From positions 1-20,818 of IMG/VR virus record IMGVR_UViG_3300021961_010940: DNA of 20,818 bases; one strand, 5' to 3'. This document shows positions 1 to 20,818 of the stretch, piece after piece; within the stretch, counting starts at the first letter, position 1; every line of letters begins with the position of its first letter. The notes beneath the pieces are model-generated. The model had not been told where the DNA came from. It saw only the letters and a program-made list of their open reading frames with translations, and ran no database searches. Source of the stretch: a virus. The translations under genes were made by a program, and so were the position numbers.

Positions 1-1428
1 ACACTCTAGCGTTCTCTCATAAAGAGTTTGATCTTTATTTAATTTAATTTTATCTATTTGTTTTTTATAATACTCGTGTAATTTCGTTTTATTTGATAGT
101 ATATTATTATTTTCTTTTTGCTGATCTTCTTCTGGGAAATTTACAGCATGGACACTATGTTGTATCATCATTTTGAGATCTTCGTAAGCGTCGGCACTTG
201 GCAATCTTTGCAAAGTCTGTATAATCATATCTAATACTTCATCATCATGAAAAGCATTATATGCCAATTGTTCTTTGTTTTTCATCATCAATTTGATTAA
301 AGGAAGATATTCATCCATATATTTGCCAGGGTTTGCTTGAATCAATTCAATAAATTTAGAAACAAACAATGACATTAAGTTTTTGAAATTAGATTTTCCA
401 ATTGCTTTCTTAGATGACATAATATCTGTATCAAATGCATCAGAAAGAGCAACTTTTAATCCATCTATCCATCCACCAGTTCTAGGGGCCTCTACTCTTC
501 TTTGGCGTTTTAAAATATTAGTAAAAACTGTGTTGTAATTAGTATGTAAAATTTTCCATCTAGGATCATCTTTAGCTAAAAAGAAAGGCAAATCTAAATC
601 AACTCCATCGATTTTGTAATCAAAAGCTCCTTCTGGCTTTATTCCTAAATAATAATTACCTTTATCATTTAACTTTTTCTTTTCATCAGATGATAAATTC
701 AAATAAGGAGCAAAATCACTTGCAACTTTTGCTTTTTGCTTTTCGCTTAATTTTGGATTGAATATATTAAAATCTATTACTTCTGGATCTTCGAGTTCTT
801 CTTTGGGTGGTGATGTATCAGTCTTTTCTGCCTCTGGCTTTGTTTCAGGGACTGGCACTGGAGTAGTAGTAGTTGTTGTTACAATAGGCGAAGGAGGAAC
901 GGTAGTAGTTGTGGTAGTAGAGCTTGTTGTAGTTGAAGTTGTGCCGGTTTCTGTATCAGTCACAGGAGGTTCTGGGAGAACATCTGTGCTTTCTGGTTCA
1001 TCTATTTTCTCAGCGTCACATTTGCCTTTTGAAATGCATCCTTGAACAAATTTAGTTAACTTTGTTTTTAATTGGCTTGCCCAATTATCGAGAAGTTTTT
1101 CAAATTTTGTTGTTCCAACGGCCTCATCTAAAATGAGAGCACTCTCTTTTAAAATATCAAGTTCATTTTTCTTACTATATGATTCGGCATATCCTAGAGC
1201 GCCTAATCTATTTCTATGATAATATGGATTTGAAGTCGTATCATGTCCATGAACTAAATTATTCCACCAATTCCTAAGCATATCAAAATATGATCTACTA
1301 GGAATTGGTTGAGACATTATTTGTCTTTTTAGTTTTTCAACTTCATTAGATATAATTGTCTTCAAATCTTGTAGTAAAAGATTTAATTTCGCATTCCCAT
1401 CTTCTTCATTAAATACATTATTCTTCAT
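1..1428 (-). CDS. Partial protein with Thr-rich hinge, probably virion-associated (3' end off window)
   Basis: The frame is open from an ATG at 1428 to the left edge, giving 476 codons without a stop; the C-terminus lies outside the window. The N-terminal part (about 170 residues) is mostly helical-looking and charged and contains a C-x5-C pair. Then comes a low-complexity hinge of Thr, Ser and Pro with two runs of six Thr, flanked by acidic Pro/Glu/Lys sequence. After it is a long Lys-rich helical C-terminal part with many Leu, Ile and Phe. I recognise no family. The Thr/Pro hinge is the same kind of sequence as the linkers in two other large proteins here, which suggests a shared extracellular or virion location. 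The ATG is 16 bases after the preceding stop and has no clear Shine-Dalgarno, so translational coupling is likely. The coding call is solid from length and composition; the role is inference. Confidence 0.85.
   Translation of the reverse strand, partial: MKNNVFNEEDGNAKLNLLLQDLKTIISNEVEKLKRQIMSQPIPSRSYFDMLRNWWNNLVHGHDTTSNPYYHRNRLGALGYAESYSKKNELDILKESALILDEAVGTTKFEKLLDNWASQLKTKLTKFVQGCISKGKCDAEKIDEPESTDVLPEPPVTDTETGTTSTTTSSTTTTTTVPPSPIVTTTTTTPVPVPETKPEAEKTDTSPPKEELEDPEVIDFNIFNPKLSEKQKAKVASDFAPYLNLSSDEKKKLNDKGNYYLGIKPEGAFDYKIDGVDLDLPFFLAKDDPRWKILHTNYNTVFTNILKRQRRVEAPRTGGWIDGLKVALSDAFDTDIMSSKKAIGKSNFKNLMSLFVSKFIELIQANPGKYMDEYLPLIKLMMKNKEQLAYNAFHDDEVLDMIIQTLQRLPSADAYEDLKMMIQHSVHAVNFPEEDQQKENNNILSNKTKLHEYYKKQIDKIKLNKDQTLYERTLEC
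862..942 (-). repeat. Thr/Ser-rich low-complexity hinge
   Basis: On the minus strand this encodes two clusters of Thr with some Ser, separated by a short V-P-P-S-P-I-V segment and followed by P-V-P-V-P. Codons are mostly ACT and ACA. The composition resembles mucin-type linkers and the longer Thr/Pro tract at the right edge of the window. Confidence 0.8.
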
Positions 1429-1444
1429 ATAGTATTTACTTTTT

Positions 1445-1888: not shown

Positions 1889-1904
1889 TTTTAAATTCAG
1901 CCTT

Positions 1905-2912
1905 TCAATTTGCGTTTTCTGCCGCTACGAGGCAACCTCTAGCGACACTAAATAATGGATCTGCGGGTCTAATGACCTCTCCCACAGGAATAGAAAGCTC
2001 TGCTGTTTTCAGAGTTTCAGCGAAAATTTCAGTGAAGCCAGTAGCACTAGCAGTTCCTCCGGCTACAATGAAATCTACTGGATTTTCAGATTTGACTGCT
2101 TTTTTTGAATTTGCAAGTCCTTCTTTAATACCAGTAATAGTTTTCTCTATCATCAAACGATATTGAGTGATAATTGCTCTTTCTACGAGACTACTTGGTT
2201 GTTTGCCCAAATCAACTTTCATTTTCTCTTTATTAATAAAAGTTGGGCTTTCTCCTGTTGCTTTTGCTGCTTGTTTGTCTATCCAGTCACCAGAGTTTAC
2301 AATGGCAAATTGAAATATTGGAGCGCCATACATAGCATAGCATACATTAACCATGCCTGCGCCACAGCTTACGCCAACACCAGTGAATGCTTTTTTAGCT
2401 AGTTCTGCATAAACAAGTGCTAATGCTTCATTAATTGGTTTGGCCTCAACTTTGAAACCATCATCTGATTCATAGCCCTTAAATATGGCTTCAAGAACTT
2501 TAGTATGGTAGTCAGCGTCTGTTTCTTGGTTAATTGCATTTGCTGGCACGCTATAGTAAAGCTTGGTTCCATCTTTACTAATTGGATCAATTAGACTGTG
2601 GGCCATGATTGACATTATTTGAAAAGCATCTTTCTCTTTTGGATTAACACATCCATCTTTCATAGGTCTTTTCAATTCCAACGATGGGAGTGTGTATGCC
2701 ATATTAACGGCTGATTCTCCCAAGGCATATGCTACATTTTCTCTTTCTATTAGAGGCACTCCCGCTTGTTTCATCATGTTAAAAACAAATCGGTTTTCTA
2801 GTGGCAAGTCAATAAATGCATTTATTTCACGTTTATATACAAAATTATTTTTATCATCCCTTTTGCAAGACACTAAGTTCCATGTGCCAAAATCAAAGCC
2901 TACACTAGACAT
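1905..2912 (-). CDS. Actin/MreB/Hsp70-fold ATPase homologue
   Basis: This is a 335-residue actin-superfamily protein. In order it has a phosphate-1 loop GFDFGTWN at residues 5-12, a connect-1-like helix PINEALALVYAE at 159-170, a phosphate-2 region GVSCGAGMVNV at 180-190, an MreB/Hsp70-like NSGDWID stretch at 206-212, and an adenosine loop VAGGTASATG at 283-292. The length suits bacterial or phage actins, which form filaments that move or position DNA. An ATG at 2972 would add 20 residues overlapping the upstream gene. I prefer the ATG at 2912 because phosphate-1 then sits at the N-terminus as is usual, and AGAGG lies 5 bases upstream. The phosphate-2 loop lacks the usual leading Asp (it reads V-S-C-G), so ATP hydrolysis may be altered. 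A filament role is inference; a chaperone-like role is possible. Confidence 0.85.
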   Translation of the reverse strand: MSSVGFDFGTWNLVSCKRDDKNNFVYKREINAFIDLPLENRFVFNMMKQAGVPLIERENVAYALGESAVNMAYTLPSLELKRPMKDGCVNPKEKDAFQIMSIMAHSLIDPISKDGTKLYYSVPANAINQETDADYHTKVLEAIFKGYESDDGFKVEAKPINEALALVYAELAKKAFTGVGVSCGAGMVNVCYAMYGAPIFQFAIVNSGDWIDKQAAKATGESPTFINKEKMKVDLGKQPSSLVERAIITQYRLMIEKTITGIKEGLANSKKAVKSENPVDFIVAGGTASATGFTEIFAETLKTAELSIPVGEVIRPADPLFSVARGCLVAAENAN

Positions 2913-2920
2913 AAAGACCT

Positions 2921-3157
2921 CTACTTTCCAAAATTTATTTTTTTTGATGGGCCGAAATCTGGAATTTCCCACTGAACATCGTCATCAGATTTCTTGATAA
3001 TTTTCTTTGTTATCTCATTTCCTGTATCTGTTGCATCAATAGAAGCGATTCCTCCATTTTGATTTAAATTAATATTCAAATCAAGCTTTAAAGAAATAGT
3101 CACTTCGCCATTTTGTGAAACTACTTTAACAGTATTTGGTGTAATTAATTGAGCCAT
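2921..3157 (-). CDS. Small protein of unknown function upstream of the actin-like gene
   Basis: This 78-residue protein looks beta-strand rich in its first half (alternating V, I, L around ISLKLDLNINLN). It then has an acidic and Asn-rich middle, and a basic end with D-F-G-P-S-K-K-I-N-F-G-K. It has no signal peptide or membrane segment, and I recognise no family. It ends 8 bases before the actin-like start, so the pair is likely co-translated; a filament partner or regulator is possible from position only. It does not look like a ribbon-helix-helix ParR protein. A TATAAATA site lies 25 bases before its ATG, inside the end of the upstream gene. No strong Shine-Dalgarno is seen. Confidence 0.75.
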   Translation of the reverse strand: MAQLITPNTVKVVSQNGEVTISLKLDLNINLNQNGGIASIDATDTGNEITKKIIKKSDDDVQWEIPDFGPSKKINFGK

Positions 3158-3180
3158 CGTTTTAATTTAGTTATCTTAAT

Positions 3181-4131
3181 TTATTTATATGAATCAAGTA
3201 GTTTTTTCCAGCCTTTTTTAATCATTTCGGGACTTATTTCTTCCAAGCATGGTTTTATTGTATCTGTTGTTCTTGGACAATTGTTGTAATTGAAACATGG
3301 GCCGCAATCTTCAATATTATTTGCATTATACTTTTGGACTACTATACATTTTGAATAGTACTTACAAATTTCATATCCACTTGTGTAAGAAAATATTCCA
3401 AGAGTTGGTATGCCATATCCGCCAGCACAATGTAAATGACCAGTGTCAGTAGAAACAATTAAGTTACAAAAATTTATAAGCGACATACTTTCTTGCAAGT
3501 TTAAGTTGCATATTTGTGGTATTTGTAGTTGGTTTAATTCTAATATAGGCACATTGTGATGGCCGATAAGAAAAAATTCCTGAGTCATTTCTTGTACAGA
3601 TTTCATTTGAAAAAAAAGTAAATTTTTTGCGCCAATAGCTGAGTGCGGTGTAAAACATACCAATTTTTTATGACCATCCCACCCTTTAGATTTCAGTATT
3701 TCAATTATTTTTGTATAATTTTCCTTATAATTTGGCATAAACATATTATGATTTAATAATTTTGATCCCATATATTCTGCCCATATATCTGCTCTATTTT
3801 TATCTGTTTGTTTCTTTTTTGACCATTCATACTTTGTACATGAATATGTTAAGTTGTAAACAGCCAAGTAATTTTCAAAATTAATTTGATTATGAGGTAT
3901 TAGATTTTTCACATATGGATGTTGCGCTGCTGCAGGAAAATACCCGTGTGGCAAAGCCCAATCAAATTCAAATTCTGGATATTTATTTTTGAGATCTTCA
4001 AATATCATTCTCATATTTAGTATATCGCCATATCCGCCTGAATCTCTTAATATGAGAATTTTGTTTTTAATTTGATTAAATTTATTGAATTCTAATTCAG
4101 TTTTATTTTTTTTCAAAGTGATAAGTTTCAT
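3181..4131 (-). CDS. GT9-type (heptosyltransferase-like) glycosyltransferase
   Basis: This 316-residue protein has the two-half layout of GT-B glycosyltransferases of family 9 (ADP-heptose transferase relatives). The N-terminal half opens with strand ILILR followed by SGGYGDILN at residues 31-39, the acceptor-side glycine loop typical of GT9. The C-terminal half has STDTGHLH at 227-234, matching the family's D-[ST]-G-x-x-H donor-site motif, followed by AGGYGIPTLGIF at 236-247. Near the end, C276, C279, C285 and C295 form the C-x2-C...C...C cluster that many GT9 proteins carry. Expected role: transfer of a sugar from a nucleotide donor; sugar and acceptor are unknown. As a phage gene among structural genes it could modify virion proteins or host surface glycans. 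A terminator precedes it, so it needs its own promoter or read-through; none is clear. Confidence 0.85.
   Translation of the reverse strand: MKLITLKKNKTELEFNKFNQIKNKILILRDSGGYGDILNMRMIFEDLKNKYPEFEFDWALPHGYFPAAAQHPYVKNLIPHNQINFENYLAVYNLTYSCTKYEWSKKKQTDKNRADIWAEYMGSKLLNHNMFMPNYKENYTKIIEILKSKGWDGHKKLVCFTPHSAIGAKNLLFFQMKSVQEMTQEFFLIGHHNVPILELNQLQIPQICNLNLQESMSLINFCNLIVSTDTGHLHCAGGYGIPTLGIFSYTSGYEICKYYSKCIVVQKYNANNIEDCGPCFNYNNCPRTTDTIKPCLEEISPEMIKKGWKKLLDSYK
3182..3189 (-). promoter_or_regulatory. Possible T4-type late promoter (TATAAATA)
   Basis: The minus strand reads TATAAATA, the T4 late promoter consensus, 25 bases before the ATG at 3157 and overlapping the stop codon of the upstream glycosyltransferase gene. 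The spacing would leave a short leader. In DNA this AT-rich several such octamers are expected by chance, so position is the main argument. Confidence 0.35.
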
Positions 4132-4144
4132 TCCATTAAAATAA

Positions 4145-4172
4145 AAAAGGGAGCAAATATTTGCTCCCTTTT
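4145..4172 (-). terminator. Intrinsic terminator of the 4195-4755 gene
   Basis: This is a perfect inverted repeat with 14-base arms centred between 4158 and 4159, core GGGAGCAAAT, flanked by A on one side and T on the other. On the minus strand it gives a GC-containing stem followed by a T run just after the stop at 4195. It is almost symmetric and could work in both directions, though no plus-strand gene ends here. The stem is nearly the same as that of the hairpin at 6357-6388. Confidence 0.9.
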
Positions 4173-4194
4173 CTTAATTTTTTATAAAATATGC

Positions 4195-4755
4195 TTATGT
4201 GTAGCAAACTGATTCGATGCTCGAAATTACTTGATAATTTACTGTGCTGTCTGTAGATGTTAACGATAGGCTAGAAAGAACCATATCTCCATTGTTGAAG
4301 ATCTGAGTATTGCCCGCACCTAATGGGAAAGTAGCAGCAGCTAGTCCATTTAGGGCAACATTTGCTGTGCCACTATTAATTGTGATTTGAGCAAAACTAG
4401 CATAACCACCACCAGAAGCTGTGAAATCAATACTTGCTGTTGCGCCTGAAGCTACTGTTGAAGCATATACAGCGGGGAATGTGTTTTCTCCGGGCTCTGT
4501 TGAGTAAATGCTTCCGTCATCTGTGACTACCTCAATAAAAGCTTGATCATGAGGAAGTTGAGGGTAAGCATATCTTTTCCAGTAGTTGCAATCAGTAAAT
4601 GTGCTTCCATCTACTAATTCACGATAAGTGCCGTTTGGACCAGCTACAAACATAGTTCTCTGATAAGAGGCACCACTCCTAAGACCAGAGCTGATGACAT
4701 AACTATCTAGTTTACCCATATATTGATTATCAAGCACTACTTTGAATACGCTCAT
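4195..4755 (-). CDS. Probable abundant virion structural protein
   Basis: This is a 186-residue protein with no recognised family. Residues 1-95 look like a compact alpha/beta domain with Y-W-K-R-Y-A-Y-P around 58-65. Residues about 95-186 are rich in Ala, Gly, Ser and Thr and look like a beta-sandwich, ending near V-C-Y-T. Composition and codon use (more GCT, GGA and ACT, less Lys and Ile) differ from neighbouring small genes and fit a highly expressed particle protein. It is a single-gene unit with a TATAAATA site about 40 bases upstream, a strong AAGGAG (4762-4767) 6 bases before the ATG, and its own hairpin terminator. That set-up is typical of abundant late proteins such as decoration or fibre-tip proteins, but which one is not shown by the sequence. 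Confidence 0.85.
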   Translation of the reverse strand: MSVFKVVLDNQYMGKLDSYVISSGLRSGASYQRTMFVAGPNGTYRELVDGSTFTDCNYWKRYAYPQLPHDQAFIEVVTDDGSIYSTEPGENTFPAVYASTVASGATASIDFTASGGGYASFAQITINSGTANVALNGLAAATFPLGAGNTQIFNNGDMVLSSLSLTSTDSTVNYQVISSIESVCYT

Positions 4756-4794
4756 TTAAGGCTCCTTATGAGAGACAGACTATAACTTATGTAA

Positions 4795-4802
4795 TATTTA
4801 TA
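4795..4802 (-). promoter_or_regulatory. T4-type late promoter for the 4195-4755 gene
   Basis: The minus strand reads TATAAATA in the 82-base gap before this gene, 39 bases upstream of its ATG. It leaves a leader of about 30 bases that contains AAGGAG at 4762-4767. Together with the terminator after the gene this is the best-supported promoter in the window. A second TATAAATA on the same strand lies inside the upstream gene (4902-4909). Confidence 0.6.
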
Positions 4803-6390: not shown

Positions 6391-6687
6391 TCATTCTAGA
6401 TGTTCTTTATTAATATAGAACTTGCCTTTTTTAGTAACTACAAGACAAGTATTTTCAAATATTTTTTTTACTCTTCCACCATTTTTGAAAAAACATTTTA
6501 GTATATCTTTAGTTGTGTTTTCTTGGTGTGGGCAATCAATATTTTCAAAAATTGTTTTATGATCAGATTTTGGTCTCACATATGAATTTTTTACAATCGC
6601 TGATTCATCATGTTCTGAATTGACCCACTTTTTGAAGTCCTTCAGAAAATCATTAGTTATACTATGAAATCCATCTTGTTTATTCAT
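6391..6687 (-). CDS. Small hypothetical protein at the end of the minus-strand block
   Basis: This is a 98-residue protein. The first half is polar and helical with D-F-L-K-D-F-K-K-W. The second half has C-P-H and a C-terminal beta-hairpin-like stretch (GGRVKKIFENTCLVVTKKGKF) that could be a small SH3-like or winged fold. No family is recognised. The start overlaps the end of the DUF115-like gene by 8 bases, so it is probably translated from the same mRNA; AAGAG lies about 9 bases before the ATG. It ends 3 bases from the shared terminator and is the last gene of the long block. Confidence 0.7.
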   Translation of the reverse strand: MNKQDGFHSITNDFLKDFKKWVNSEHDESAIVKNSYVRPKSDHKTIFENIDCPHQENTTKDILKCFFKNGGRVKKIFENTCLVVTKKGKFYINKEHLE

Positions 6688-7570
6688 CGTTAATCACTCT
6701 TATAAAATCTTCTTCTTCAAGATATTTAGCAAAGCTAAATGATTTTTTTAATCCAGTATAAAAAACTTGTAGCTGATTATTTTGTATTTTATTCCAAAAA
6801 ATATTTTTATTAACTACATCATTTGCAAGTTTTTGTTGTGGATAAATATATTTTTCATCTTCAACTTTTTCCATTCCGTCTTTGAATGTATCATATCCCT
6901 CTGAACAAAAAGCTAAAAATATTCTTTTTGCATTAAAATGCATAGCACAATTAAATGCGCCAACTATTGGATTCCTGTAATCATCTATAAAAAAACTGGC
7001 CCCTTTTGTTATGGGGCTGGCAAACAAATAACTAGGAGTGTTTGTATAAAAGTATTTCATATTTCTATATTTTTTAATATATTCGTGATTGCATCTTTTG
7101 CTTGCAATTAAAATAGGTAAAAATTTTATATTGGTAGGCGGGTTCAATTGATTGATAAGATAGTATTGAGGTACTTTTGCACTTTCCCAAAATCGCAAAG
7201 AGTTATTGACAGATAATACTACTTTTTTTTGAGATATATTTATTTTATCAAATACATTTTTATGATTCTTATAAAATCCATATCCATTTGATACAATTAC
7301 TACTGTTTCCCAATTAAAATTTTCTATTTCAATATCTGGTATATTCAATTTTGAGTTTTTTATTTCATTTTCTACAAGAAGTTTTACTTCTTCTTCATTA
7401 AAATAATTGTTTATATCAATAGGTGAAACATTTGGTTTTTTTGGATTTCTTATCCAAATATCATCTGATTTACAATATTCATTTCTGTCCTCATTTACTT
7501 TTATGTTTACAGTTTCTTTGTCTCCTTCAAAATTAAGGACTGTTACTTTTTTAATTGCTGAATTTGACAC
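6680..7570 (-). CDS. DUF115-like putative glycosyltransferase
   Basis: This is a 296-residue protein. After about 85 polar residues comes a Rossmann-like core. Strand VVIVSNGYGFYKN at 90-102 stands where DUF115/Maf-type proteins have their GxGPSL loop. KVVLSVNNSLRFW at 116-128 and VPQYYLINQ at 133-141 match the 'second strand, then substrate loop' order. GAFNCAMHFNAKRIFLAFCSEGYD at 204-227 matches the 'G-x-x-A...lG-x-k-I-x-L-x-G-x-D' region. This family is related to sialyltransferase-like enzymes and flagellin-modifying Maf proteins; the assignment is by pattern only, and the usual GPSL loop is changed. The start is GTG, 2 bases after the upstream stop, with GGAG 5 bases before it. Placement directly after the giant Thr/Pro/Cys-rich protein suggests that protein may be its target. 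Confidence 0.6.
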   Translation of the reverse strand: MSNSAIKKVTVLNFEGDKETVNIKVNEDRNEYCKSDDIWIRNPKKPNVSPIDINNYFNEEEVKLLVENEIKNSKLNIPDIEIENFNWETVVIVSNGYGFYKNHKNVFDKINISQKKVVLSVNNSLRFWESAKVPQYYLINQLNPPTNIKFLPILIASKRCNHEYIKKYRNMKYFYTNTPSYLFASPITKGASFFIDDYRNPIVGAFNCAMHFNAKRIFLAFCSEGYDTFKDGMEKVEDEKYIYPQQKLANDVVNKNIFWNKIQNNQLQVFYTGLKKSFSFAKYLEEEDFIRVINDE

Positions 7571-7572
7571 AC

Positions 7573-10500
7573 TTACTCTCCAAATATTTCGCCAACATCT
7601 GGTTTTACAGCGTTGTTTTTATCTTGTACTCTTAAAATATTATTTTCTTCTGTTTGTATTTTAACAAAAGGTATTTCAGATATTGCTTTCGAAATAAAAT
7701 CAGAAATTTCTCTATTTTTAATTTCTTGACTCATTTCGCCAACCACATCAACTTGAATTGGCATATTAATTTCTTCGGTTATAATTTGTGGTTTTGCAAG
7801 TTTATTTTTTATATCGTCTAGATTTAAATGAATGTGAGGTGCTCTGCCTAATTTAGAAAATTTCTCTTCAAAACTGAAAGCAAAAGATACAGAGCAATCT
7901 GTAGTAGCAGTTTGTCCAAAAGTGCTTCCTGCGAACGCTGGCTGTTGACAACCACAAATTGCTCCTTCGACTGTAGGGCAGTAATCAGTTTGTGTCCAAG
8001 CTCCAGGAACAGCCCAAGTCCATCCGCAAGTACCACAAGATCCACCTCCACCTCCGCCGCCACCATCACCAGCACACTCTTGAGGTTTGCAAATTGGCGG
8101 AAGTCTTCTTGTGCAAGGTGTTTGGGTTGATGTTTCGAGAACTGGAGGAGCATCTGGATAGGGGCATGCACATTCAACACAGCACCGAGTATTTACTTCA
8201 TCCCCATTTGTGTCTGCATTACAAGGGATCGCAGAATCGCCAAATAAAGCATCGTCTGGCTTTCTACACTTGCAACTACCATCTCCTTCAAGATCAGGAG
8301 CGCACACTGCATTATTTACTAATCTCCACCCTATGCCATTAAGACACAACCACCCACAACATGGCTCTACATCAAGTTCTATGCCCGGACATGCACTTGG
8401 AACTCCATTTGCATCTAGGGGGCCACATGGTTCCCCAAATCCACCTTGATGAACCCATTTGACTTCTCCTAATACATCCATAGCAGTCCAATTGCAAGTG
8501 CCACAACCTTGAGGAGCAGGAGTTGTAGTTGTTAGACAAGCTCTTTGCAAATGTTGTCCAGCATTTCCGGGAGGAGTCGGTGGTACACCAGGACAGTCAC
8601 AGCCGGGAAGTCTTACTGGCGGGAAGACAGTTGGCAAATAGTCATGACAATAATCTATAGCGGAAAGAGCCCATTCATATGGACCGACATCAAGTATACA
8701 AGGCAAGTCAACCAGTTCTCCATTTGCTGGATTTGCAGGGAATGACCCTGGGAACTGATAATATGCTGCCACCCAATTTAAACAAAGGCCAGATGCACCG
8801 CAATTAGCACCACATGGACCATTTTTGACTAATGTATAAATTTTATTTACAGCATCATATTGATATCTACATGCTGTTTGATCATCACATGTAGGATTAT
8901 CAGCAACGTATACACAATTTCCACATCCAGATGGTCGACCAGTAGTGCCTGGAACTGGTGTTGTAGTCACACAACATAATTGAACCAATTCATCTGGATA
9001 TAAAATTGGCACATTCGGCTCGTCTGGAGGGCATTCGCAACCTGCAAGACAGTAATTTGTTGGGCCTTCCCATTCGCCATCCAAAGCTAAACCAGAAACT
9101 CCATAACAATAACAGAAATCTTTATATTCATCTCCGTCATTTGGATTTACTGGTAACAGATTAACCATTTGCTCTGGATCTAAACATTCGCAATCAGGGC
9201 ATCCGGGGCATCCCAAAGAGTCGTCTAAAACCCATCCTGTCCCAGCAAAATAAGTGTAAACACAATTTGTGCCTGTTCCACCACACACAGTTGCATTGAA
9301 AACATAATCACAATAACCACACGTACAGCTAGGAGCAGGAGTTGTAGTAGTTGCACAAAATAAAGTTGCATATCTATCATCCACAATATCTCCACCATAA
9401 GATGGAGGTGGCGGACATTCGCATCCAGGCTGACAATCATCAGAAATGAACTGCCAATGTGGCTCACTGAGACAAGGCAAGTCTCCAGAAATAAATGGAT
9501 CAACATCTGGGACTTCAGGCAATTCGCCTCTTGCAATTCTTACTTCCACTGATTCGCATTGGCAACTAAGTCCATTTAGCTTGAAACAACTGCCGTTGAC
9601 AAAAGACCACGCTGCATTTTCGTACTTATAAATACAGTAATTTTTTGATGTATTGTCTATTACAGAGCATTCGTCATATACCCATTCATAATAACATGTG
9701 CCGCAATCTCCTCCAGGTGTTGGTGTCGGCGTGGGTGTAGGTGTAGGTGTGGGTGTAGGTGTGGGTGTGGGGGAAGGGCTAGGCGAGGGCGGTGTAGGCG
9801 AGGGCGGTGTAGGCGAGGGCGGTGTAGGCGAGGGCGGTGTTGGCGAGGGTGGTGTAGGTGAGGGTGGTGTAGGTGAGGGTGGTGTTGGCGATGGCGGTGT
9901 TGGCGATGGCGGTGTTGGCGATGGCGGTGTTGGCGTAGGTGTTGGTGTCGGCACTGGGCAATCTTGAGGCCTTTGCCCAACTGAATAACCTATTTTTACG
10001 CAAACTCTACTGAAAGTAAAACTTGTGGTACTTGGGGCAATAATATAAAACTTCCAAGGACTTGAATTCAGCGCTTCGCCTGTAAATGTTCCAAGATCTC
10101 CCCCATATGACGGAGCTGGAGCGGGTTCTACTAAAGTTACTCTTCCAGCCGATCTGCTGTTGTTATTGCCATTAGGGGATGGTCTATATTTGCCACTTGT
10201 AAGAGCACCTACAGAATAAATATCAGATGTGCCTGTATCATCAAAATTTATATTTATGGGACCAGAAAAAGAACCATGAGTCGATGAACTTCCCATAAGT
10301 AGAACTGTAGATCCAGCCCCACTTTGTAATAAAAACTTTATAGAGCCATAATCGCCTTTTGTAATTTGGAAATTTGTAATTTGTACAGTAACATTATTAA
10401 TTATTGGTTCGTCGCCTGGACATAATGTACAAACATCTGTTGAGTATGGATATTCTGTTGGAATGCCATTAACTACTGAAACATTAAAATCACAATTTAC

Positions 10501-11547: not shown

Positions 11548-11557
11548 TTTTTACCTT

Positions 11558-13777
11558 TCAATATGTTGTCATAATCCATTGGTTTCCATCTGGTCTACTA
11601 TTTAGTTTAGTAAATGTTAAGTCTAATTCATTAAATTTTGTATAAGCATTTGAACTGTAATCAAAACTTAGATATGCATTTCTATCACCATCTGTAGATG
11701 CCAGAAGCGTATTTGTTTCATCATCGTAATCAACTACAGAAGTATCTTGCATTTGCTTGAATTGAACTGAGTTGATTCCAGGGCCACCAGTCCTCCAAAC
11801 ATCTAAGTTGGTATCATATTGTGAAACAGATCCGCTATTGTTGAAAAAGAATAAACCGCTGGTCAAATTTACTAATTGGCCTTCTAGTTTTACTGACCCT
11901 AGCATATCTCCTAATTTTTTGAATCCTCCTATATCATTTCCTTGTGATTGGAATGATTCGTAAAATAGAATTATTCTGAAATTTTCGCCAACAAAATCAT
12001 TTTTCAGAATATATGCTGTTTGATCTCGATTAGCTGTTCTATATGTTGAGAAATATCCGTATTCTGATTCACCAGAAGAATTAAATTCAGCAGCGTTTTC
12101 TTGTAATTCAGTTGCTTGTCCTAAAAAGTCTTCAGAAGTAAACGAAGCAGCTAGTATAGTGTTTGTAAGAGTATTGTGTATTTGTATGCTTTCCCAATTT
12201 GTAATAGACAAACCAGGAGATTGATTTGTAGTAAGGTTGCCAAGCATGAAATAGCTTAGATCCCCGAAATCGAAAGCAACCCAGTTCCAAGGTCTTGTAA
12301 ATGTTTTAAAACTGTTATAAGTTTCTAAGTATCCATTATACTCTACTGATATTATTTCTTCGATTGATATTGGCTGTGTAGCGTTTCGCCCTGTAGCATA
12401 ATATAAAAGACAAGAACCGCTAAGTCCTGACACAACGTTTCCAATAGATTTTGCAAAAGTGTTACGTTTAAATTCTCTTACTAATTGCGCTGTATTTAAA
12501 TATTGCCCTTCTAAGAAAAGTGGATTTACATTTATTGAACAAAATGAATTCTGTTTAGTTTTAAAAACTTCAGTAGTAAATCCCATTTCTGAACTTTGAA
12601 TTACATTTGTAGAATCACCAAAAAATGTAAACAACCATATATTTGTTCTTTCTACGATATTAAAATAAGAATCAAAATTTGTAATTCTGAAAGATTGGTT
12701 TTCTGTATCACATCTTAGAGATATGTCATAGACTCCGCCAACGCTGTATAAAGCACTTGTTGTAGAGCTATTTGCATGATCTATATCATCAGATAAAAAC
12801 CATGTATAAGTAATTATTGGATCTAGGATTTTGCCAGATTCATCTGTAAGTTCACCATTATTTTCTACAGTAATTACTATTTGTAATCCAACTGGACTTT
12901 TGAAAATTCCATTAATAGGTTGTTGCAGCCCAGTGGTTAGTACAGATAATGTTGATTCATTTGGTGCTGGATATCTAGCATTAATTAGATCTCTAATAAG
13001 ATAAGTATCTTCGCCAAAATCATTAACAACACGCAATGAAACCGAATATATTCCTGGAGTTGTGTAAGTTTTTACAATAGTACCACCGTCTGTATCTTCT
13101 ATTATAGAATTTACATCTTGCACTGGAACTTCATCTGTGTATTCTTTATAAACAATATTGCTACCAGTTGCATCTCCAAAGTCCCAAAAAAACTTAATTT
13201 CATTTTTTGGTATTTGATCACCAAGTCTAATGCTCTGATTAGTAAAAGTGCAAGTAAGAGGAGCAAGTCCTAATCTTTTATCAACTGTAAACCATGCTTT
13301 TGGTTCAAAAGCTAATCTGGTAGCACAATTTGTTCGAGCTTCAATAGTACCTTGTGTTGGCACACAAGCTGCTTTTCTATCATCAATTCTTTTGCCTGCA
13401 TACTGTTGAATTGCTTTTATAGATTCTTTAATAGAGTTATGATGTTCTGCCATAACATTCATAACAACAGTCGTTACTATGCTAGGCTTATCAGAATCAA
13501 CAAATCCATCTAATTTTGTTAATCCAGAAAATATATTGTTTGCAAAAGATGTATAGTAAAAAGATAGTGCTCTTAGATCTGGTTCTGAACATTGCTCAAC
13601 TAAAGTAATGATTCCATTTGGCGGAAATAAACTTGTTTTGTCTTGATCAAATTCTACTTGTATTTCTTGATCGCCAGCCATGTAGTCTCTAGCGAGTTTC
13701 AGGTATACAGAGTCTTTGACAGAGTATAAATTTGTGTCGTTGTCTAAAGATACAGGATAATTTATTTCTGGAATCAT
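11558..13777 (-). CDS. PKD-domain tail/fibre protein (middle paralogue)
   Basis: This is a 739-residue protein. Residues about 30-130 are the shared N-terminal module, with FPPNGIITL at 51-59 and MAEHHNSIK at 109-117. A PKD domain follows (about 158-268) with FFWDFGDATGS at 196-206 and PGIYSVSLRV at 241-250. A second, more divergent PKD-like domain has ITYTWFLSDD and GGVYDISLRC before about residue 350. The remaining 370 or so residues are beta-rich and unknown; near the end, phrases such as Y-D-T-N-L-D-V-W-R-T-G-G resemble kelch or propeller blades, but too few are seen to call. The protein is probably virion-surface, with the PKD folds acting as spacers. The stop of the upstream gene is one base before its ATG, so coupling is likely; its own ribosome-binding site is weak. 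Confidence 0.87.
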   Translation of the reverse strand: MIPEINYPVSLDNDTNLYSVKDSVYLKLARDYMAGDQEIQVEFDQDKTSLFPPNGIITLVEQCSEPDLRALSFYYTSFANNIFSGLTKLDGFVDSDKPSIVTTVVMNVMAEHHNSIKESIKAIQQYAGKRIDDRKAACVPTQGTIEARTNCATRLAFEPKAWFTVDKRLGLAPLTCTFTNQSIRLGDQIPKNEIKFFWDFGDATGSNIVYKEYTDEVPVQDVNSIIEDTDGGTIVKTYTTPGIYSVSLRVVNDFGEDTYLIRDLINARYPAPNESTLSVLTTGLQQPINGIFKSPVGLQIVITVENNGELTDESGKILDPIITYTWFLSDDIDHANSSTTSALYSVGGVYDISLRCDTENQSFRITNFDSYFNIVERTNIWLFTFFGDSTNVIQSSEMGFTTEVFKTKQNSFCSINVNPLFLEGQYLNTAQLVREFKRNTFAKSIGNVVSGLSGSCLLYYATGRNATQPISIEEIISVEYNGYLETYNSFKTFTRPWNWVAFDFGDLSYFMLGNLTTNQSPGLSITNWESIQIHNTLTNTILAASFTSEDFLGQATELQENAAEFNSSGESEYGYFSTYRTANRDQTAYILKNDFVGENFRIILFYESFQSQGNDIGGFKKLGDMLGSVKLEGQLVNLTSGLFFFNNSGSVSQYDTNLDVWRTGGPGINSVQFKQMQDTSVVDYDDETNTLLASTDGDRNAYLSFDYSSNAYTKFNELDLTFTKLNSRPDGNQWIMTTY

Positions 13778-13778
13778 T

Positions 13779-14807
13779 TTATGTTACCATGATAGTTTCA
13801 GTTAAAAATACTCTTAGTACTCTTTGTCCTACAAGTTCAATTAATACTGAAGCATCATAAGAGCCGGGATTTTCATATTGATGCTGTGCTGTATGTATGT
13901 TTGGATTTGTTATCAAAGAAGTCGTTCCATCTCCAAATTGCCACAATCTATTTGTAATTTCCGCTCTAGTCTGATCAACAAACAAAAAATTTGTTGGCTC
14001 CATGTTTGATTTGGCTGCCGTTTTTTTTGAAACACCTACAAGTGGGCTTGCGTATGTAAAAGGCAAAGCATAATCATTTGCAACGCTGATGTATTCTTTT
14101 TTTGTTGTAAATCCTTGAGCACCCAAAGCTGTTATTACTCTAAATGTAATAGTATAATTGCCTGGAGCTTCATACGTATGAGTTGGATTCTTGTCAAATG
14201 AACTGCCGCCATCTCCAAACTCCCAAAAGAATCTAATCGCATTTGAATTACTAAATGTATGGAAGTTAACAGTAAGAGGTGGAGCGCCAACAGTTGGAAA
14301 AGCTCTGAATAATGCTTTAGGGGAAAGTATTTTTGATTCTTGAATCTTGAGAAGGCCAGTCAAAGTATCTTCTCCAACTGCTTCCTCAACACCTAAATAT
14401 GTTTCAAGATTTATAATTGCATCTTTTATTGAGTTATGATGCTCAGCCATAACTCCAGCTTCTACTGCTGTTCCTACAGGCCAAACACTTTGTTTTGTTG
14501 AACAAAAGCCTCGTATTAGTTGTGTAAAAGTATTATTTGTTCTTTTATTGTAATAAACTAATTCAGAATTTAATCCTATTTTATCTCTCAGAAAAAGTCT
14601 CAATATTCCTTTCTCTGGAAATTTTAGAGCATCATTATCTGGTACAACAATAAGTTGATCACTGACTGAAATGAATTGTAATGTTTTGCTTGAAGCAAGA
14701 TTTTTAGCTTCGTACAATGTTTCATAATTATCAATAGCGCTTTTGTAAACTGATAAATCACCAGCTACATAACCTGAATCATATGATGTTATTTTTTCTA
14801 TTGCCAT
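13779..14807 (-). CDS. Two-PKD tail/fibre protein (shortest paralogue)
   Basis: This is a 342-residue protein. It has the shared N-terminal module with FPEKGILRLFL at 63-73, E-L-V-Y-Y at 82-86, a RGF turn at 99-101 and VMAEHHNSIKDAI at 119-131. The region reads like the small beta-barrel found in many phage structural proteins ('P-x-x-G-x-I...E-x-I-x-Y...RG...GT'), followed by a helix. PKD domain 1 is at about 163-243 (FFWEFGDGGSS at 193-203, APGNYTITFRV at 214-224). PKD domain 2 is at about 272-341 (LWQFGDGTTS at 288-297, NPGSYDASVLI at 313-323). It has no catalytic motif. It starts three bases after the TAG of the coiled-coil gene. This is likely the ancestral-size version of the two larger downstream neighbours. 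Confidence 0.88.
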   Translation of the reverse strand: MAIEKITSYDSGYVAGDLSVYKSAIDNYETLYEAKNLASSKTLQFISVSDQLIVVPDNDALKFPEKGILRLFLRDKIGLNSELVYYNKRTNNTFTQLIRGFCSTKQSVWPVGTAVEAGVMAEHHNSIKDAIINLETYLGVEEAVGEDTLTGLLKIQESKILSPKALFRAFPTVGAPPLTVNFHTFSNSNAIRFFWEFGDGGSSFDKNPTHTYEAPGNYTITFRVITALGAQGFTTKKEYISVANDYALPFTYASPLVGVSKKTAAKSNMEPTNFLFVDQTRAEITNRLWQFGDGTTSLITNPNIHTAQHQYENPGSYDASVLIELVGQRVLRVFLTETIMVT

Positions 14808-14810
14808 ATA

Positions 14811-15458
14811 CTACTTATTCTTTTCTGTTAGCTTTTTTTGATTCTCTATTAATGCAGAAGCAAATTGATTTTTGATTGGAGCTGTATCTGGAAGACTTAA
14901 AATAGACTTTGCCAACTCTGGATTTATTGGATGTCCAAGCAAAGTATATACATTTAGTTCGTATTTGAACTTTGTATTCCAATACTCATTTTGCGCTGTT
15001 TGATTATCCCAATCTAATACTTCATAATCTTTTGTCAAATTGTTAAAAATTTCGAGTATTTTATTTGATTCTGCAAGTATAACTTCTTTTTTTTCATTAA
15101 GTTTTGAAAGAGTATTCTCTAATGTTTTTAACAATCTTTCTTTTTTTCTAACTACTATTTCTATTTCTTTTGCTTCAATAAATTTAATTTCAAGTACGTT
15201 TGATTTTGGAAGTCTTAATTTTGTCTTTTGAATTTTTAATTTTTGCAACTCAATATTATCTTTTGCTTGTTCTAATTCAAGTTCTAGGTTCTGAAGAGAC
15301 TCATATCTATTTTGTAGTTCTCTAATACATTGCCAAATTTTAGATTGTTTAGTGTATTCCTTGCCAATCATGAAATTTTCTATCTGAAAATCAGAATGCT
15401 TAGATGAAACTTTATGTTTGCTTACTACTTCTTTTATTTTTTCTACTATTTCGCTCAT
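14811..15458 (-). CDS. Coiled-coil protein, probably tail-associated
   Basis: This is a 215-residue protein. A short helical N-terminus is followed by a long coiled coil from about residue 40 to 140, with two Leu/Glu/Lys-rich heptad stretches broken by R-L-P-K-S-N near 82-87, so probably an antiparallel hairpin. The C-terminal 70 residues hold LDWDNQTAQNEYWNTKF and an LLGHPINPELAKSILSLPDTAPIK stretch (here split in description), which looks like a small conserved domain. I recognise no named family. It lies between the glycosyltransferase-like gene and the PKD genes with 1- to 3-base spacings, so it is expected in the same complex or assembly step. A chaperone or tail-assembly role is possible. 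It ends with TAG. Confidence 0.8.
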   Translation of the reverse strand: MSEIVEKIKEVVSKHKVSSKHSDFQIENFMIGKEYTKQSKIWQCIRELQNRYESLQNLELELEQAKDNIELQKLKIQKTKLRLPKSNVLEIKFIEAKEIEIVVRKKERLLKTLENTLSKLNEKKEVILAESNKILEIFNNLTKDYEVLDWDNQTAQNEYWNTKFKYELNVYTLLGHPINPELAKSILSLPDTAPIKNQFASALIENQKKLTEKNK

Positions 15459-15459
15459 T

Positions 15460-15978
15460 TCATACGTCTAAAGCCTGTACTATTGCTTTAAACTTTGCTC
15501 CTTTCGTAATCGCTCTATCAGCCCATTCTAATTTAGTTAATTTCAAATCATTTCCTGTCAAGAAATTGCCTACTGTATTAAAGAAGTTTTTATTCAATAA
15601 AAGACCATTCACAGACCCATCAACAAAATTCCAAACTCTATCAACAACAGGAAAAATTACATCTGAAAAATTATTGATATATCTTGATAATTTTGTATCT
15701 ATATTTTTCTTTATAGAAGTCCCTGAAAATATAAAATACAACCATTCTGCTTTTGCTTTATTAAAAGATTCGTTAATCATACATGTTATGCAGTTATTTG
15801 ACTTATATGTTGGATAATAAAATTCTGATAACGATGAATTTTGCGGAATGACCACAAAAAACTCATACTTGTTATTAAAATTTACAAAACTTTTAACCGT
15901 GCGATCTATATTTTTAGGCGAACCATCAAGGCAAAGAAGAACAACTTCCATGTTGATATCTTTTGCTGCATAATACAT
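15460..15978 (-). CDS. Minimal GT-A glycosyltransferase-like protein
   Basis: This is a 172-residue protein. Residues 10-45 (MEVVLLCLDGSPKNIDRTVKS, then YEFFVVIP) look like the first beta-alpha-beta of GT-A family 2 enzymes. NESFNKAKAEWLYFIFSGTSI at about 88-108 stands where those enzymes have 'N-x-g-x-x-x-A-x-G-e-W-x-x-F-l-D-x-D'. Here the metal-binding Asp residues are replaced by Ser-Gly-Thr, so catalysis is doubtful. DVIFPVVD and a later 'gllLNK-x-F-F' piece fit the acceptor part. It is short for an active enzyme (typically 230 residues or more). An internal Met at residue 10 could be the true start, but neither start has a strong ribosome-binding site. Gene spacing is 3 bases upstream and 1 downstream, inside a tail gene run. 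Activity and target are unknown. Confidence 0.5.
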   Translation of the reverse strand: MYYAAKDINMEVVLLCLDGSPKNIDRTVKSFVNFNNKYEFFVVIPQNSSLSEFYYPTYKSNNCITCMINESFNKAKAEWLYFIFSGTSIKKNIDTKLSRYINNFSDVIFPVVDRVWNFVDGSVNGLLLNKNFFNTVGNFLTGNDLKLTKLEWADRAITKGAKFKAIVQALDV

Positions 15979-15981
15979 GAT

Positions 15982-16821
15982 TCATACCAATGTGACTTCG
16001 AAATCGATCTTAATTATGTCATCAGCGGTGACTGCATTCAATAGCGCAAATCCTAAACCATTTGGATATTCCGTAAATTTATTAAGTTTCCAAGTTGGGT
16101 TATCACTAAAACTCGGATAATAAACTTCTGAATCATTAAAAATTCTAGTTCCATTTATGAATACCTTAAGAGAGCCTTCTCTAAATGGGGAACTAATATT
16201 AGTCAAATAGTCAAGATAGTTCGGACTTAGGTCTCGACTAATTGGCGTTATTCCATCATAGTGCTCATGAGGATTTGATAAACTAGATGTTACTTCTGCT
16301 TTTACAGTTTGATTATTTGCTACTGTCCAAGTTATAGTTGTTGAATCTTCAAAAGTTAAAATTCCATTATCTATGTAATCGATGCCAGAAGGAGTTGTAA
16401 ACCCTACACTAAAGTTTTTTGCTTCATTTGCTATAAGAGTTAATTTATCTCTTTCTGCTTGAAGCATTCTAACGAAAGGAACTGGATTAACTAAATCTGG
16501 AAAACCAAGTCCTTGCAGCGTTGCTAGAAATTCTTCAGTAACTTCATAAGTGCTATCTTGGTGCGCTCCAATATTATGTAAAGCCGCATCAACACCAGAC
16601 GCTTTGAGATTACCATTATCTTGCAAAGATTGAGCAAGCCTTAAAGCCAAACTACCCGCAGTTCCAAATGAAGCTTGTAATTCTGCGCTATTTACATCAA
16701 CTTGATAGTTAATGATATCTTCACGACGAACTAAAGCGGCAATCGGTAAATTGTCATAAGTATAATGATAAGGCTGATTGCCTTCGTACTGTGGTACTAC
16801 AACTTGATTTATATCTGGCAT
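15982..16821 (-). CDS. Phage tail/baseplate-periphery protein
   Basis: This is a 279-residue protein. The N-terminal half is helical and polar (ELQASFGTAGSLALRLAQSLQDNG near 47-70, SGVDAALHNIGAH near 76-88). The C-terminal half is beta-rich, with H-E-H-Y-D-G-I-T-P-I near 187-196 and a hairpin LKVFINGTRI near 222-231. That 'x-V-F-I-N-G-x-R' turn is common in phage tail-fibre and baseplate proteins. The last residues, DDIIKIDFEVTLV, look like a final strand. No family name can be given with confidence. Its ATG is 15 bases after the previous stop and no good Shine-Dalgarno is seen. Its position next to the gpI-like gene supports a baseplate or fibre attachment role. Confidence 0.75.
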   Translation of the reverse strand: MPDINQVVVPQYEGNQPYHYTYDNLPIAALVRREDIINYQVDVNSAELQASFGTAGSLALRLAQSLQDNGNLKASGVDAALHNIGAHQDSTYEVTEEFLATLQGLGFPDLVNPVPFVRMLQAERDKLTLIANEAKNFSVGFTTPSGIDYIDNGILTFEDSTTITWTVANNQTVKAEVTSSLSNPHEHYDGITPISRDLSPNYLDYLTNISSPFREGSLKVFINGTRIFNDSEVYYPSFSDNPTWKLNKFTEYPNGLGFALLNAVTADDIIKIDFEVTLV

Positions 16822-16836
16822 AATAACATATTTATG

Positions 16837-17313
16837 TTAAATGTAATTAATTCTCCAGTTAAAAGTAATTTGAATTTGATCAGTTTTATTCAAATCAGCG
16901 AAAGTAGTCATACTATATAAGTCGCCATTATTAAGAACCAAAGCCATTTCATTAATGGCATATCCATTTGCATCAGCATAAGATAAAACAGTTGTAAAAA
17001 TAGCTTGAGTAGGGTTTGTAGTATCAATATTACTTATGACAGATTTTTCTGCAACTGTAGCACCATAAAGACCAGTTCTGCTAGTATTCACCAGTTTTAC
17101 TTGCCCGCTTTCTGTGCCTCCAGTACCGAAAATCATACGCATGACATAAAAATTTGTATAATCTCCTAGCTCATTAGTAATTGTCTTTGCTAATGCTATT
17201 CGACCTAGTCGTAATACAGTATTTTTAACAGTCCAAGATTTTTTATTTCCTGACTTATCTTCTACTGTTATGTCAACAAATCCTTGTGATTCAATGTCAC
17301 TGCTGCTTTTCAT
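16837..17313 (-). CDS. Tail/fibre-associated structural protein
   Basis: This is a 158-residue protein of a type seen in large phages beside baseplate genes. The order is WTVKNTVLRLGRIALAKTI (27-45), MRMIFGTGGT (58-67), a strand pair with TRTGLYG, then GYAINEMALVL and LYSMTTFADLNKT, ending QITFNWRINYI. The pattern 'GR-x-x-L ... FG-x-GG ... INEMAL' reads as a beta-rich structural domain; I recall similar phage proteins but not a reliable family name. Its ATG overlaps the stop of the gpI-like gene by 4 bases (ATGA), with AAGGGG about 9 bases upstream, so the two are tightly coupled. No membrane segment, cysteine or enzymatic motif is seen. Confidence 0.75.
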   Translation of the reverse strand: MKSSSDIESQGFVDITVEDKSGNKKSWTVKNTVLRLGRIALAKTITNELGDYTNFYVMRMIFGTGGTESGQVKLVNTSRTGLYGATVAEKSVISNIDTTNPTQAIFTTVLSYADANGYAINEMALVLNNGDLYSMTTFADLNKTDQIQITFNWRINYI

Positions 17314-20300: not shown

Positions 20301-20818
20301 TTCAACGAAATAAATTTTTATTGTATCAACTTTATATGGGTCAAAATTAAATGTGCCATCAGCTAATGGAGTTAAAAATGTAAATTGTATAATATTGTTT
20401 ACATTTGTATTCTCAAAATAGTTTTTTACAAACTTGCCATCAATTATCTCACGTTGCGGCTCTGGTGGTCTCCCAGTAGTAGTAGATGTAGTCGTTGTAG
20501 GAGCCGGTGTAGTAGTCGTTGTAGGAGCCGGTGTAGTAGTCGTTGTAGGAGCCGGTGTAGTAGTGGTTGTCGGAGCCGGTGTAGTAGTGGTTGTCGGAGC
20601 CGGTGTAGTTGTAGTAGTTGTCGGTGCCGGTGTAGTTGTAGTAGTTGTCGGTTCTGGTGTAGTAGTAGTGGTTGTCGGTGCTGGTGTAGTAGTAGTGGTT
20701 GTCGGTGCTGGTGTAGTAGTAGTGGTTGTCGGTGCTGGTGTAGTAGTAGTGGTTGTCGGTGCTGGTGTGGTAGTAGTGGTTGTAGGTTCTGGTGTGGTAG
20801 TAGTGGTTGTCGGTGCTG
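17310..20818 (-). CDS. Giant gpI-like baseplate protein with N-terminal Thr/Pro repeats (5' end off window)
   Basis: The frame is open from the TGA at 17310 to the right edge, at least 1168 residues. A TTG at 20249 could be mistaken for a start, but the frame has no stop upstream and codes for clear protein there. Order from the N-terminal side: a TTTTT/PAP tract (20818-20475), an Ig-like strand segment (DGTFNFDPYKVDTIKIYFVER near 20375-20300, here described as one stretch), a second beta domain (SDPVGIIKNGIFRFLW..., FYLCYTWTP) about 20020-19860, then a gpI-type tail domain near 19640-19500 with LLVYLANLFGL, W-R-R-Q-I and K-R-K-G-T-L-G-A-L. The P2 gpI family sits on the baseplate periphery and links wedge to fibres. 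The last 600 or more residues are beta-rich and unknown. gpI proteins are usually near 200 residues, so this is a large elaboration. Confidence 0.88.
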   Translation of the reverse strand, partial: APTTTTTTPEPTTTTTTPAPTTTTTTPAPTTTTTTPAPTTTTTTPAPTTTTTTPEPTTTTTTPAPTTTTTTPAPTTTTTPAPTTTTTPAPTTTTTPAPTTTTTPAPTTTTSTTTGRPPEPQREIIDGKFVKNYFENTNVNNIIQFTFLTPLADGTFNFDPYKVDTIKIYFVERNLNAVKNQSTIVQEYDLNIQRRYAEAFQKWAETQTEEDYIAAQNLKYQLDASIVSNQIYYSETDVVYKAGSDSDPIWSRYGDNTNSIIKKVSDPVGIIKNGIFRFLWSPDGSVREGEFYLCYTWTPEFGSDTLSDYIHFYVGSDVKNEVTNPSNLVPANKYEQLLDVYTPEMYKLNYAKEDISVETINNLNKSIAQGFTVLENLALQMEFLMDANVVQEPLLVYLANLFGLNLRTNDPTLWRRQIKTAIPKFKRKGTLGALQHALSEANIRLLKYDQLWLTGSDFVFTESFQYTGLNSFELTKVSLSVVDAYFILEYRTRYDDYALAPLSNIKITTSNGVSTMVWVGAPLNNGDHIKITYQIKPFENQNQIDIHDYILTLPLADSRNDKYFDYPKKDWNTRLISELDPMFSIIVSTKNPFYNDVKFGKVRTIFPYSENVYNMDEYNGSLRDSTNPCDIDKDFLEPCRSTISPYFDLDVEIDSLSTFRITECINIINEYIPFHATLNNLNFQGTFHDFVLPPEENIKMLLTYKGSEFVIAGMAQVLFNRSMFQGTGINEVLRDALATQTTLETGSTRFFNQYINLFCSEINFERVGITKTASNTLLEILSPNIYSGEYTVTNARKNYIEIVETLPELINDSPFGFRISNITISDTSFVITKSNMYKIFDNTIDFSEYDIKSLWDVANGYASNCWKIKIVSTEITYNILSFVNNIFTLENDGTLSDVAATGVEFELLNASDEGIVTSTNGTYTVELIAKVTPSVGLGIVDISDFVSASTYFYKDSDSTQYEFYSLDSTDAASFFISGWNSGSGTFSGKILQRVVDNTIGSLSYYGMKVYKPGSWPTFDNPDTTLIDTQNFKENYILIVNDIPYYFIDYEVDSDNCLRIGGDFNNWGTTNTAGTLENYTLLQFDKSSAAFFGYDLYDISRNGQEVINYMVETGSGSFALNLESMSGNNNLPIQQQGQDPGISEKVMQSDSITFFIERKDGTSEKGEIK
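20475..20818 (-). repeat. Thr5-6/Pro-Ala-Pro tandem tract (continues off window)
   Basis: At least twelve 24- or 27-bp units encode five or six Thr followed by PAP, or PEP in two units. Nearest the unique sequence the units have five Thr with ACG or ACC codons. Farther out are four identical 27-bp units (about 20658-20765) with six Thr. All unit lengths are multiples of three, so copy number can vary in frame. The array reaches the window edge, and its full length is unknown. Confidence 0.93.

Follow-up and report, generated by a model that had tools for sequence, protein, structure and literature searches.

A Maf-like protein encoded beside a tail-type protein gene in a huge-phage lineage: a candidate system for virion glycosylation

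The virus record IMGVR_UViG_3300021961_010940 (the window, by which we mean the whole 20,818-base stretch of DNA analysed) encodes three proteins with Thr/Pro tracts together with three glycosyltransferase-like genes. It raises the question of whether this phage glycosylates its own virion and, if so, which enzyme would act on which protein. A sequence-only reading of the window had proposed that the tracts are O-glycan acceptors for the three enzymes, and had named the co-occurrence of tracts and transferases across related phages among its tests. We have compared the 18 main genes of the window (w1 to w18) with viral contigs and find that this reading saw real features and a plausible system, but tied that system to the wrong part. 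Our strong result is that a protein with a predicted Maf-like fold, w10, is locked in position to the gene for a tail-type protein, w11; glycosylation itself is a prediction. The explanation we prefer, to which we give a probability of about 0.5, is that w10 glycosylates its neighbor w11, with conserved Pro-[Ser/Thr] segments of w11 as the likeliest sites and the tracts serving as linkers.

The w10-w11 pair

Relatives of the window were gathered by scanning viral contigs with w13 (the best 80 of 377 relatives), with GT9 and with a w10 alignment (the best 80 of 90 relatives), and LR756511.1 was added. Scanned as single sequences, neither w10 nor w15 gave a match in viral contigs, and w10 relatives were reached by way of the alignment. 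Joined wherever a core protein common to them was 95% identical, the window and 167 loci formed 102 clusters. The counts below are of these clusters, defined without a tree, and are phylogenetically non-independent.

The window represents part of the genome of a huge phage, from a lineage with a conserved baseplate/fiber cassette; parent and related records reach 527, 532 and 595 kb (the last being LR756511.1). The recurring gene order is Tail_P2_I-w17-w16-w15-w14-w13-w12-w11, continuing from w11 as w10-w9-(w7 reversed)-w5-GT9-Volactin-w2-w1, and the central w14-w13-w12-w11-w10 order is kept in 85 of the 85 loci that hold all five genes. We assign the cassette to the baseplate and fibers because w18 scores above the Tail_P2_I cut-off, because w13 and w17 match PHROG baseplate-wedge families, if more weakly, and because w11, w12 and w13 have a common N-terminal domain, such that their profiles cross-match.

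In 69 of the 72 non-redundant clusters that have w10, w11 is encoded upstream of it at a distance of no more than 1.5 kb; the placement of w10 directly after the Thr/Pro/Cys-rich w11 had already been remarked in the window. The three exceptions (L024, L028 and L037) are cut by contig ends. The two genes overlap in 30 clusters and are separated by 0 to 44 bp in 28 and by 92 to 1010 bp in 11, which puts 58 clusters between -65 and +44 bp; these small gaps and overlaps are approximate, the gene start being taken as the first ATG, GTG or TTG of the frame. A scan with w10 favors loci that contain it, and the fair set for judging the pairing is therefore that reached with w13. Here, w10 is present in the locus in 24 of the 29 clusters that have a complete w11 and at least 1 kb of downstream sequence, and in four of the other five it lies elsewhere on the record, one of these four matches being partial and located where the contig stops. 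Searches of 24 whole records found w10 in 4, the 20 negatives being fragments of 14-46 kb. In the cluster of L004, L005, L006 and L108, where w10 was not seen, the locus ends inside further open reading frames (ORFs).

The w10 model, built from 60 sequences with a predicted local distance difference test (pLDDT) score of 95.8, aligns with Maf (5mu5) at Z 20.3 (root-mean-square deviation 3.6, 246 residues), as compared with Z 13.9 over 192 residues for the MptE-like HPPK 8sd5, Z 10.3 for SteA and Z 6.5-7.8 for sialyltransferases. At the level of a predicted model, this shows that w10, the gene of which is positionally locked to w11, has the fold of the Maf central domain. According to the portion of PMC11339370 available to us, that central domain (pfam01973) is similar to the sialyltransferase Cst-II. 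The w10 sequences reach down to 26% identity, and the residues invariant in all 60 are mostly polar or aromatic (N30, W39, R41, N68, G96, W128, Y175, D196, Y198, R199, N200 and W259). The sequence-only reading had described this gene as DUF115-like; w10 falls below the PF01973 cut-off, and so we call it Maf-like rather than a member. Of the 60 relatives, 27 match PF01973 at E up to 0.01 (best 1.1e-8), and searches of NCBIfam and PHROGs returned no informative family for w10.

Several observations count against a Maf-type role for w10. By Foldseek E-value MptE/HPPK comes first (4.4e-4), and Maf is absent among the 50 matches listed. The window protein scores 15.8 bits against PF01973, where the cut-off is 34.6, and seven relatives scanned singly gave 19.0-20.5 bits in three cases and no match at E 0.01 in four. 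The N- and C-terminal regions of Maf are missing from w10, the alignment covering 182-514 of a 632-residue entry, and the w10 profile had no match at E up to 10 among PDB chain sequences. Finally, NeuB was found in 0 of 16 records by a search that was positive in 9 of 14 control genomes, so that no nonulosonic acid pathway of the phages' own is seen; we assume that the sugar donor of w10 is host-derived.

The Foldseek ranking speaks for the proposal that w10 is no protein glycosyltransferase but an MptE-like diphosphokinase, or an enzyme that adds sugars to phage DNA or to the surface of the host, its place beside w11 reflecting cassette inheritance and nothing further. These phages are indeed rich in other transferases, GT2-type enzymes being common (11 of 12 records score above the PF00535 cut-off), and phages are known to glucosylate DNA, according to the sections of PMC12619734 that we could draw on. 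Against this, the structural alignment favors Maf over HPPK by the Z scores given above, and w10 is present in 11 of 12 records, in a single copy in each and beside a structural gene. We consider this proposal unlikely.

Candidate acceptor sites in w11

The w11 protein is built from the N-terminal domain common to w12 and w13, a set of IPS repeats, a Pro/Thr tract, and Cys-rich modules connected by short TTTTPAP-type linkers. Its tract, and those of w1 and w18, are real. Windows of 20 amino acids with at least 70% Thr, Pro or Ser, which is our main tract definition, number 29 in w1, 75 in w11 and 103 in w18, whereas the maxima in 1000 composition shuffles of each protein were 0, 10 and 8; the observed level was reached in 0 of the 1000 shuffles for each. 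Thr/Ser/Pro tandem tracts of the mucin type are therefore present in the window proteins. At the DNA level the tracts of w11 (15 bp x 10.4) and w18 (27 bp x 12.6) are near-perfect tandem repeats, with 94% matches in each.

Across the lineage the w11-w10 pair is nearly constant and the tract is not. A complete w11, meaning one whose match does not touch the locus edge, is present in 66 clusters (67 before L143, a 116-amino-acid fragment, was discounted), and lies beside w10 in 62, L143 not being among these. By the main definition a w11 tract is present in 16 of the 66 and in 12 of the 62, leaving 50 in which w10 adjoins a w11 lacking a tract. Five tract definitions gave 12, 32, 22, 8 and 12 of the 62 clusters, and 8, 18, 12, 5 and 7 of the 25 such clusters reached by the w13 scan; at the loosest, 30 of the 62 still have no w11 tract. 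In the other two proteins tracts are rarer, being found in 3 of 24 clusters for w1, the window included, and within the first 200 residues of w18 proteins longer than 900 amino acids in 1 of 50, which is the window itself.

The w18 tract calls for some caution in its own right. The w18 gene is open at the contig end; when a close relative's w18 was read from the contig of that relative, it had no tract, and in L007 a Pro/Ser tract lies midway along the protein instead. The first ATG, GTG or TTG of the frame is at 20249, so that the usual start codons are missing between the tract and w18, with which it is in frame; we flag the arrangement as either a fusion of recent origin or an assembly break within a repeat at the contig end.

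Nor do the tracts follow the transferases. Of 48 clusters with GT9, 22 have a tract somewhere in the locus, as do 3 of the 8 that lack GT9 (p 0.72); for the w11 tract the corresponding figures are 8 of 40 and 0 of 6 (p 0.57). For w15, tracts anywhere in the locus are if anything commoner where the gene is missing (25 of 71 clusters with w15, 7 of 10 without; p 0.045, for clusters that are non-independent), while the w11 tract alone is seen in 13 of 55 clusters with w15 and 0 of 1 without. The composition of the tracts is also inconstant. The w11 tract consists of FPTP and QPTP units in L002, PPTPV in L005, SPSP in L007 and almost pure Pro with Ser in L010, and over the 16 clusters Thr varies from 4 to 43%, Ser from 0 to 27% and Pro from 22 to 59%, with Thr nearly missing in L010 (4%) and L007 (5%).

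Taken together, these data bear on the original proposal, that the tracts are mucin-like acceptors decorated by all three enzymes. The tracts are real and lie in the same cassette as the enzymes, low-complexity regions are among those that Maf can modify (PMC11339370, in the text accessible to us), and none of the six clusters lacking GT9 has a w11 tract, the p value of that comparison notwithstanding. Against these stand the 50 of 62 clusters in which w10 is kept beside a tract-free w11, the indifference of locus-wide tracts to GT9, the persistence of tracts in clusters lacking w15 and the near absence of Thr from some tracts. The co-occurrence by which the proposal was to be judged is thus not what the lineage displays, and we think it improbable that the tracts are what these enzymes serve. 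Our best reading is that they are sporadic, fast-changing linkers arising from tandem-repeat expansion, an optional extra that may be glycosylated incidentally but does not account for the conservation of the enzymes.

Thr tracts also occur in other proteins of relatives. One of these, in L002 (1132-7923), a 2263-amino-acid w16 relative encoded between w17 and w16, has five Thr tracts covering 476 residues and is more mucin-like than any protein of the window.

Better lineage-wide acceptor candidates are suggested by the sequence of w11 itself. Segments of the form hydrophobic-P-x-any-hydrophobic average 27.1 per w11 and have Ser or Thr at x in 61% of cases, in contrast to 1.1-2.5 segments per protein and 16-27% Ser or Thr at x in w12, w13, w18 and w16; this control uses assigned proteins, since the w11, w12 and w13 profiles cross-match. 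Every one of the 66 complete w11 representatives has the hydrophobic-P-[S/T]-x-hydrophobic form; 64 of them have three or more copies, the exceptions being L075 with two and L096 with one, and 33 of the 67 representatives counted have at least ten. In the window, w11 has four IPSxI repeats and one LPTVF. Such segments would suit what the available part of PMC11339370 says of Maf, which modifies Ser or Thr and needs no sequon, its sites lying close to apolar residues or within low-complexity sequence.

The w11 evidence has its own counterweights. In 15 of the 67 representatives, and no more, is the Ser/Thr share at x at least 70%, and the w11 repeats may be purely structural. The loosest definition finds tracts in 32 of 62 clusters, and because Maf acceptors include low-complexity regions the tracts may be acceptors in this particular phage.

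The GT9 and GT-A-fold genes

The identification of w4 as a GT9 glycosyltransferase is borne out by a PF01075 score above the cut-off, and three relatives score 24.5, 26.9 and 44.2 bits. What we take to be the GT9 signatures are an N-terminal GD and a C-terminal motif of the D-[TS]-x-x-x-H type; among 49 cluster representatives, 271-359 amino acids long, 47 have both, and G35, D36, D229, T230 and H234 are invariant in seven aligned sequences. We regard w4 as a real GT9 member that is probably active. GT9 lies within 400 bp downstream of w5 in 45 of the 51 clusters with both genes in one locus, and w5 is a possible partner or target of the enzyme.

The w15 protein has no Pfam match. Its model (44 sequences, pLDDT 93.2) has a predicted GT-A fold, with Z 16.6 to BcsA, 16.2 to WrtF and 15.3 to GalNAc-T2, in keeping with its earlier description as GT-A-like; what is missing is the DXD motif, found at the expected site (the end of strand 79-84, the fourth strand) in 0 of 44 aligned members, 41 of which have Gly at position 86. 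A D-x-D elsewhere, roughly within residues 66-126, occurs in 24 of 113 w15-family ORFs, mostly just before or after the site. Metal-independent GT-A enzymes exist, which makes inactivity of w15 likely rather than certain. Lacking DXD, w15 probably does not work as a standard transferase; a derivative with a structural, sugar-binding or chaperone-like role is the likelier reading. The likeness to GalNAc-T2 speaks for the tracts as mucin-like acceptors, and the missing DXD speaks against them.

Ten clusters lack w15 (L095, L121, L100, L124, L122/123, L110, L105/107, L103, L104/106 and the L111 group) and look, by gene layout, largely like one group. We did not find w15 in 11 records around L100, L104-L106, L110, L111, L114-L117 and L124, in a search that included no positive record; the profile matches the 113 ORFs elsewhere. 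Pro/Thr-tract proteins are present in this group. In L111, a member of this sister group that lacks w15, none of w12, w11 and w10 was found beyond w13; two very large PT-tract proteins are encoded there instead (11017-17757 and 17773-21011), and YFAGG-type repeats occur in the first.

Since w15 has the fold of an enzyme but not the metal motif, repurposed transferases may occur in this cassette, and w10 could in principle be another: a non-catalytic folding or assembly factor for w11, the repeats and tracts of which would be purely mechanical, forming an extended Pro-rich fiber and linkers. That the tracts of relatives share Pro richness and not Thr would fit this proposal. The conservation of several polar invariants of w10 down to 26% identity argues otherwise, and we regard a purely mechanical w11 with an inert w10 as the least probable of the accounts considered here.

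The features of the window are collected in Table 1. For w16, Pfam and PHROG searches gave no family at cut-off, and collar is a working label for it; w17 matches PF12571 at 7.3e-4 (20 bits), below the cut-off of 23. Volactin-family actins of the w3 type occur in at least 78 of the compared sources, complete copies being 63-85% identical to that of the window. Volactin papers, as far as their accessible text goes, concern the archaeon Haloferax volcanii, and a phage clade with such an actin merits separate study. The w11-to-w2 part of the cassette is also present on a 77-kb contig (L170) binned as a Neisseriaceae metagenome-assembled genome, a weak hint of the host.

Table 1. Coordinates of the window features discussed in the text
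Feature	Position	Strand	Evidence or remark
w1, conserved cassette protein with Thr/Pro tract	1..1428	-	open at contig end; family in 24 clusters
w1 Thr/Pro tract, residues 151-198	835..978	-	
w3, Volactin-family actin	1905..2972	-	PF25216 E 3e-64
w4, GT9 glycosyltransferase	3181..4131	-	PF01075 29.2 bits, cut-off 22
w5, 186-amino-acid conserved protein directly upstream of GT9	4195..4755	-	
w10, Maf/MptE-fold protein, candidate virion-protein O-glycosyltransferase	6680..7570	-	predicted model; 296 amino acids
w11, baseplate/fiber-type protein (putative fiber role)	7573..11547	-	
w11 Pro/Thr/Ser tract, residues 525-618	9694..9975	-	
w11 IPSxI repeat block, residues 298-335, putative lineage-wide acceptor	10543..10656	-	
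w12, PKD-containing paralog of w11 and w13	11558..13777	-	PF18911 6e-8, 33.1 bits, cut-off 27
w13, PKD-containing structural protein	13779..14807	-	PF18911 1.5e-22; PHROG 2885 baseplate wedge 4e-5
w15, GT-A-fold protein lacking DXD	15460..15978	-	predicted model and alignment
w16, conserved cassette protein	15982..16821	-	conserved order
w17, tail-fiber/baseplate-wedge-like	16837..17313	-	PHROG 9521 baseplate wedge 6.7e-6
w18, Tail_P2_I baseplate protein, open at contig end	17310..20816	-	PF09684 4.7e-6, 27 bits, cut-off 20.6
Thr/Pro tract preceding w18 and in frame with it, open-frame residues 1-122	20451..20816	-	

A proposed mechanism and its relation to known systems

We propose that w10 would act in the cytoplasm in the way that Maf acts on flagellin, transferring a host-derived activated sugar to Ser or Thr of freshly synthesized w11 that has yet to be built into a tail. 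The likeliest sites would be the repeated hydrophobic-P-[S/T]-x-hydrophobic segments. GT9 (w4) might then extend the glycan or modify another virion protein, such as its neighbor w5, with w15 serving as a structural, sugar-binding or chaperone-like derivative and the Thr/Pro/Ser tracts as repeat-expanded linkers open to incidental glycosylation. A self-glycosylated virion has become more plausible than it was from the window alone, because a Maf-type fold is locked to a virion-type gene across the lineage, although the tracts are unsupported as its acceptors. More specifically, and as a tentative possibility, the cassette may hold a flagellin-type cytoplasmic O-glycosylation unit, in which a stripped-down Maf acts on P-[S/T] segments of a fiber and a GT-A enzyme has turned into a tail component or sugar-binding factor. 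If the pairing is truly one of enzyme and substrate, virion glycosylation becomes testable with two genes in Escherichia coli. For these phages, the genomes of which measure several hundred kb, it might also help to explain how the tail surface is varied and recognition avoided.

To our knowledge, virion glycosylation is documented in few phages. Among jumbo phages the nearest parallel is the Moraphages, a lineage described (PMC12619734, as far as its available text extends) as having four putative transferase orthogroups in its core, with virion glycosylation as one possible role. The likeness is one of description, that of a large-phage lineage with putative core transferases, and no pair of a Maf-like and a tail-protein gene is named in those sections, nor is one apparent in the accessible portions of the open-license literature on DUF115/Maf in phages. 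In Mycobacterium phages, glycans are present on the capsid and tail tube (Freeman 2023, as cited in the same part of PMC12619734). Both systems would involve phage-encoded transferases with virion proteins as presumed targets; the mycobacteriophage glycans have been observed, whereas the window is known from its genes and its candidate target is a fiber-like protein.

The enzyme families themselves give the closer comparison. With the MptE-like 6-hydroxymethylpterin diphosphokinase 8sd5, w10 has a PF01973-type fold in common, aligning with a lower Z over a shorter stretch than it does with Maf. Relative to the Maf flagellin glycosyltransferases (5mu5; CbMaf of Clostridium botulinum), w10 lacks the N- and C-terminal domains, falls below the Pfam cut-off, has a phage tail-type protein as its neighbor and occurs in a lineage with NeuB in none of the 16 records searched. 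What they have in common is the central Maf_flag10 (pfam01973) fold, as modeled for w10, and perhaps a genomic setting: maf genes adjoin flagellin genes, and w10, in 69 of 72 clusters, adjoins the gene for its presumed structural acceptor, w11.

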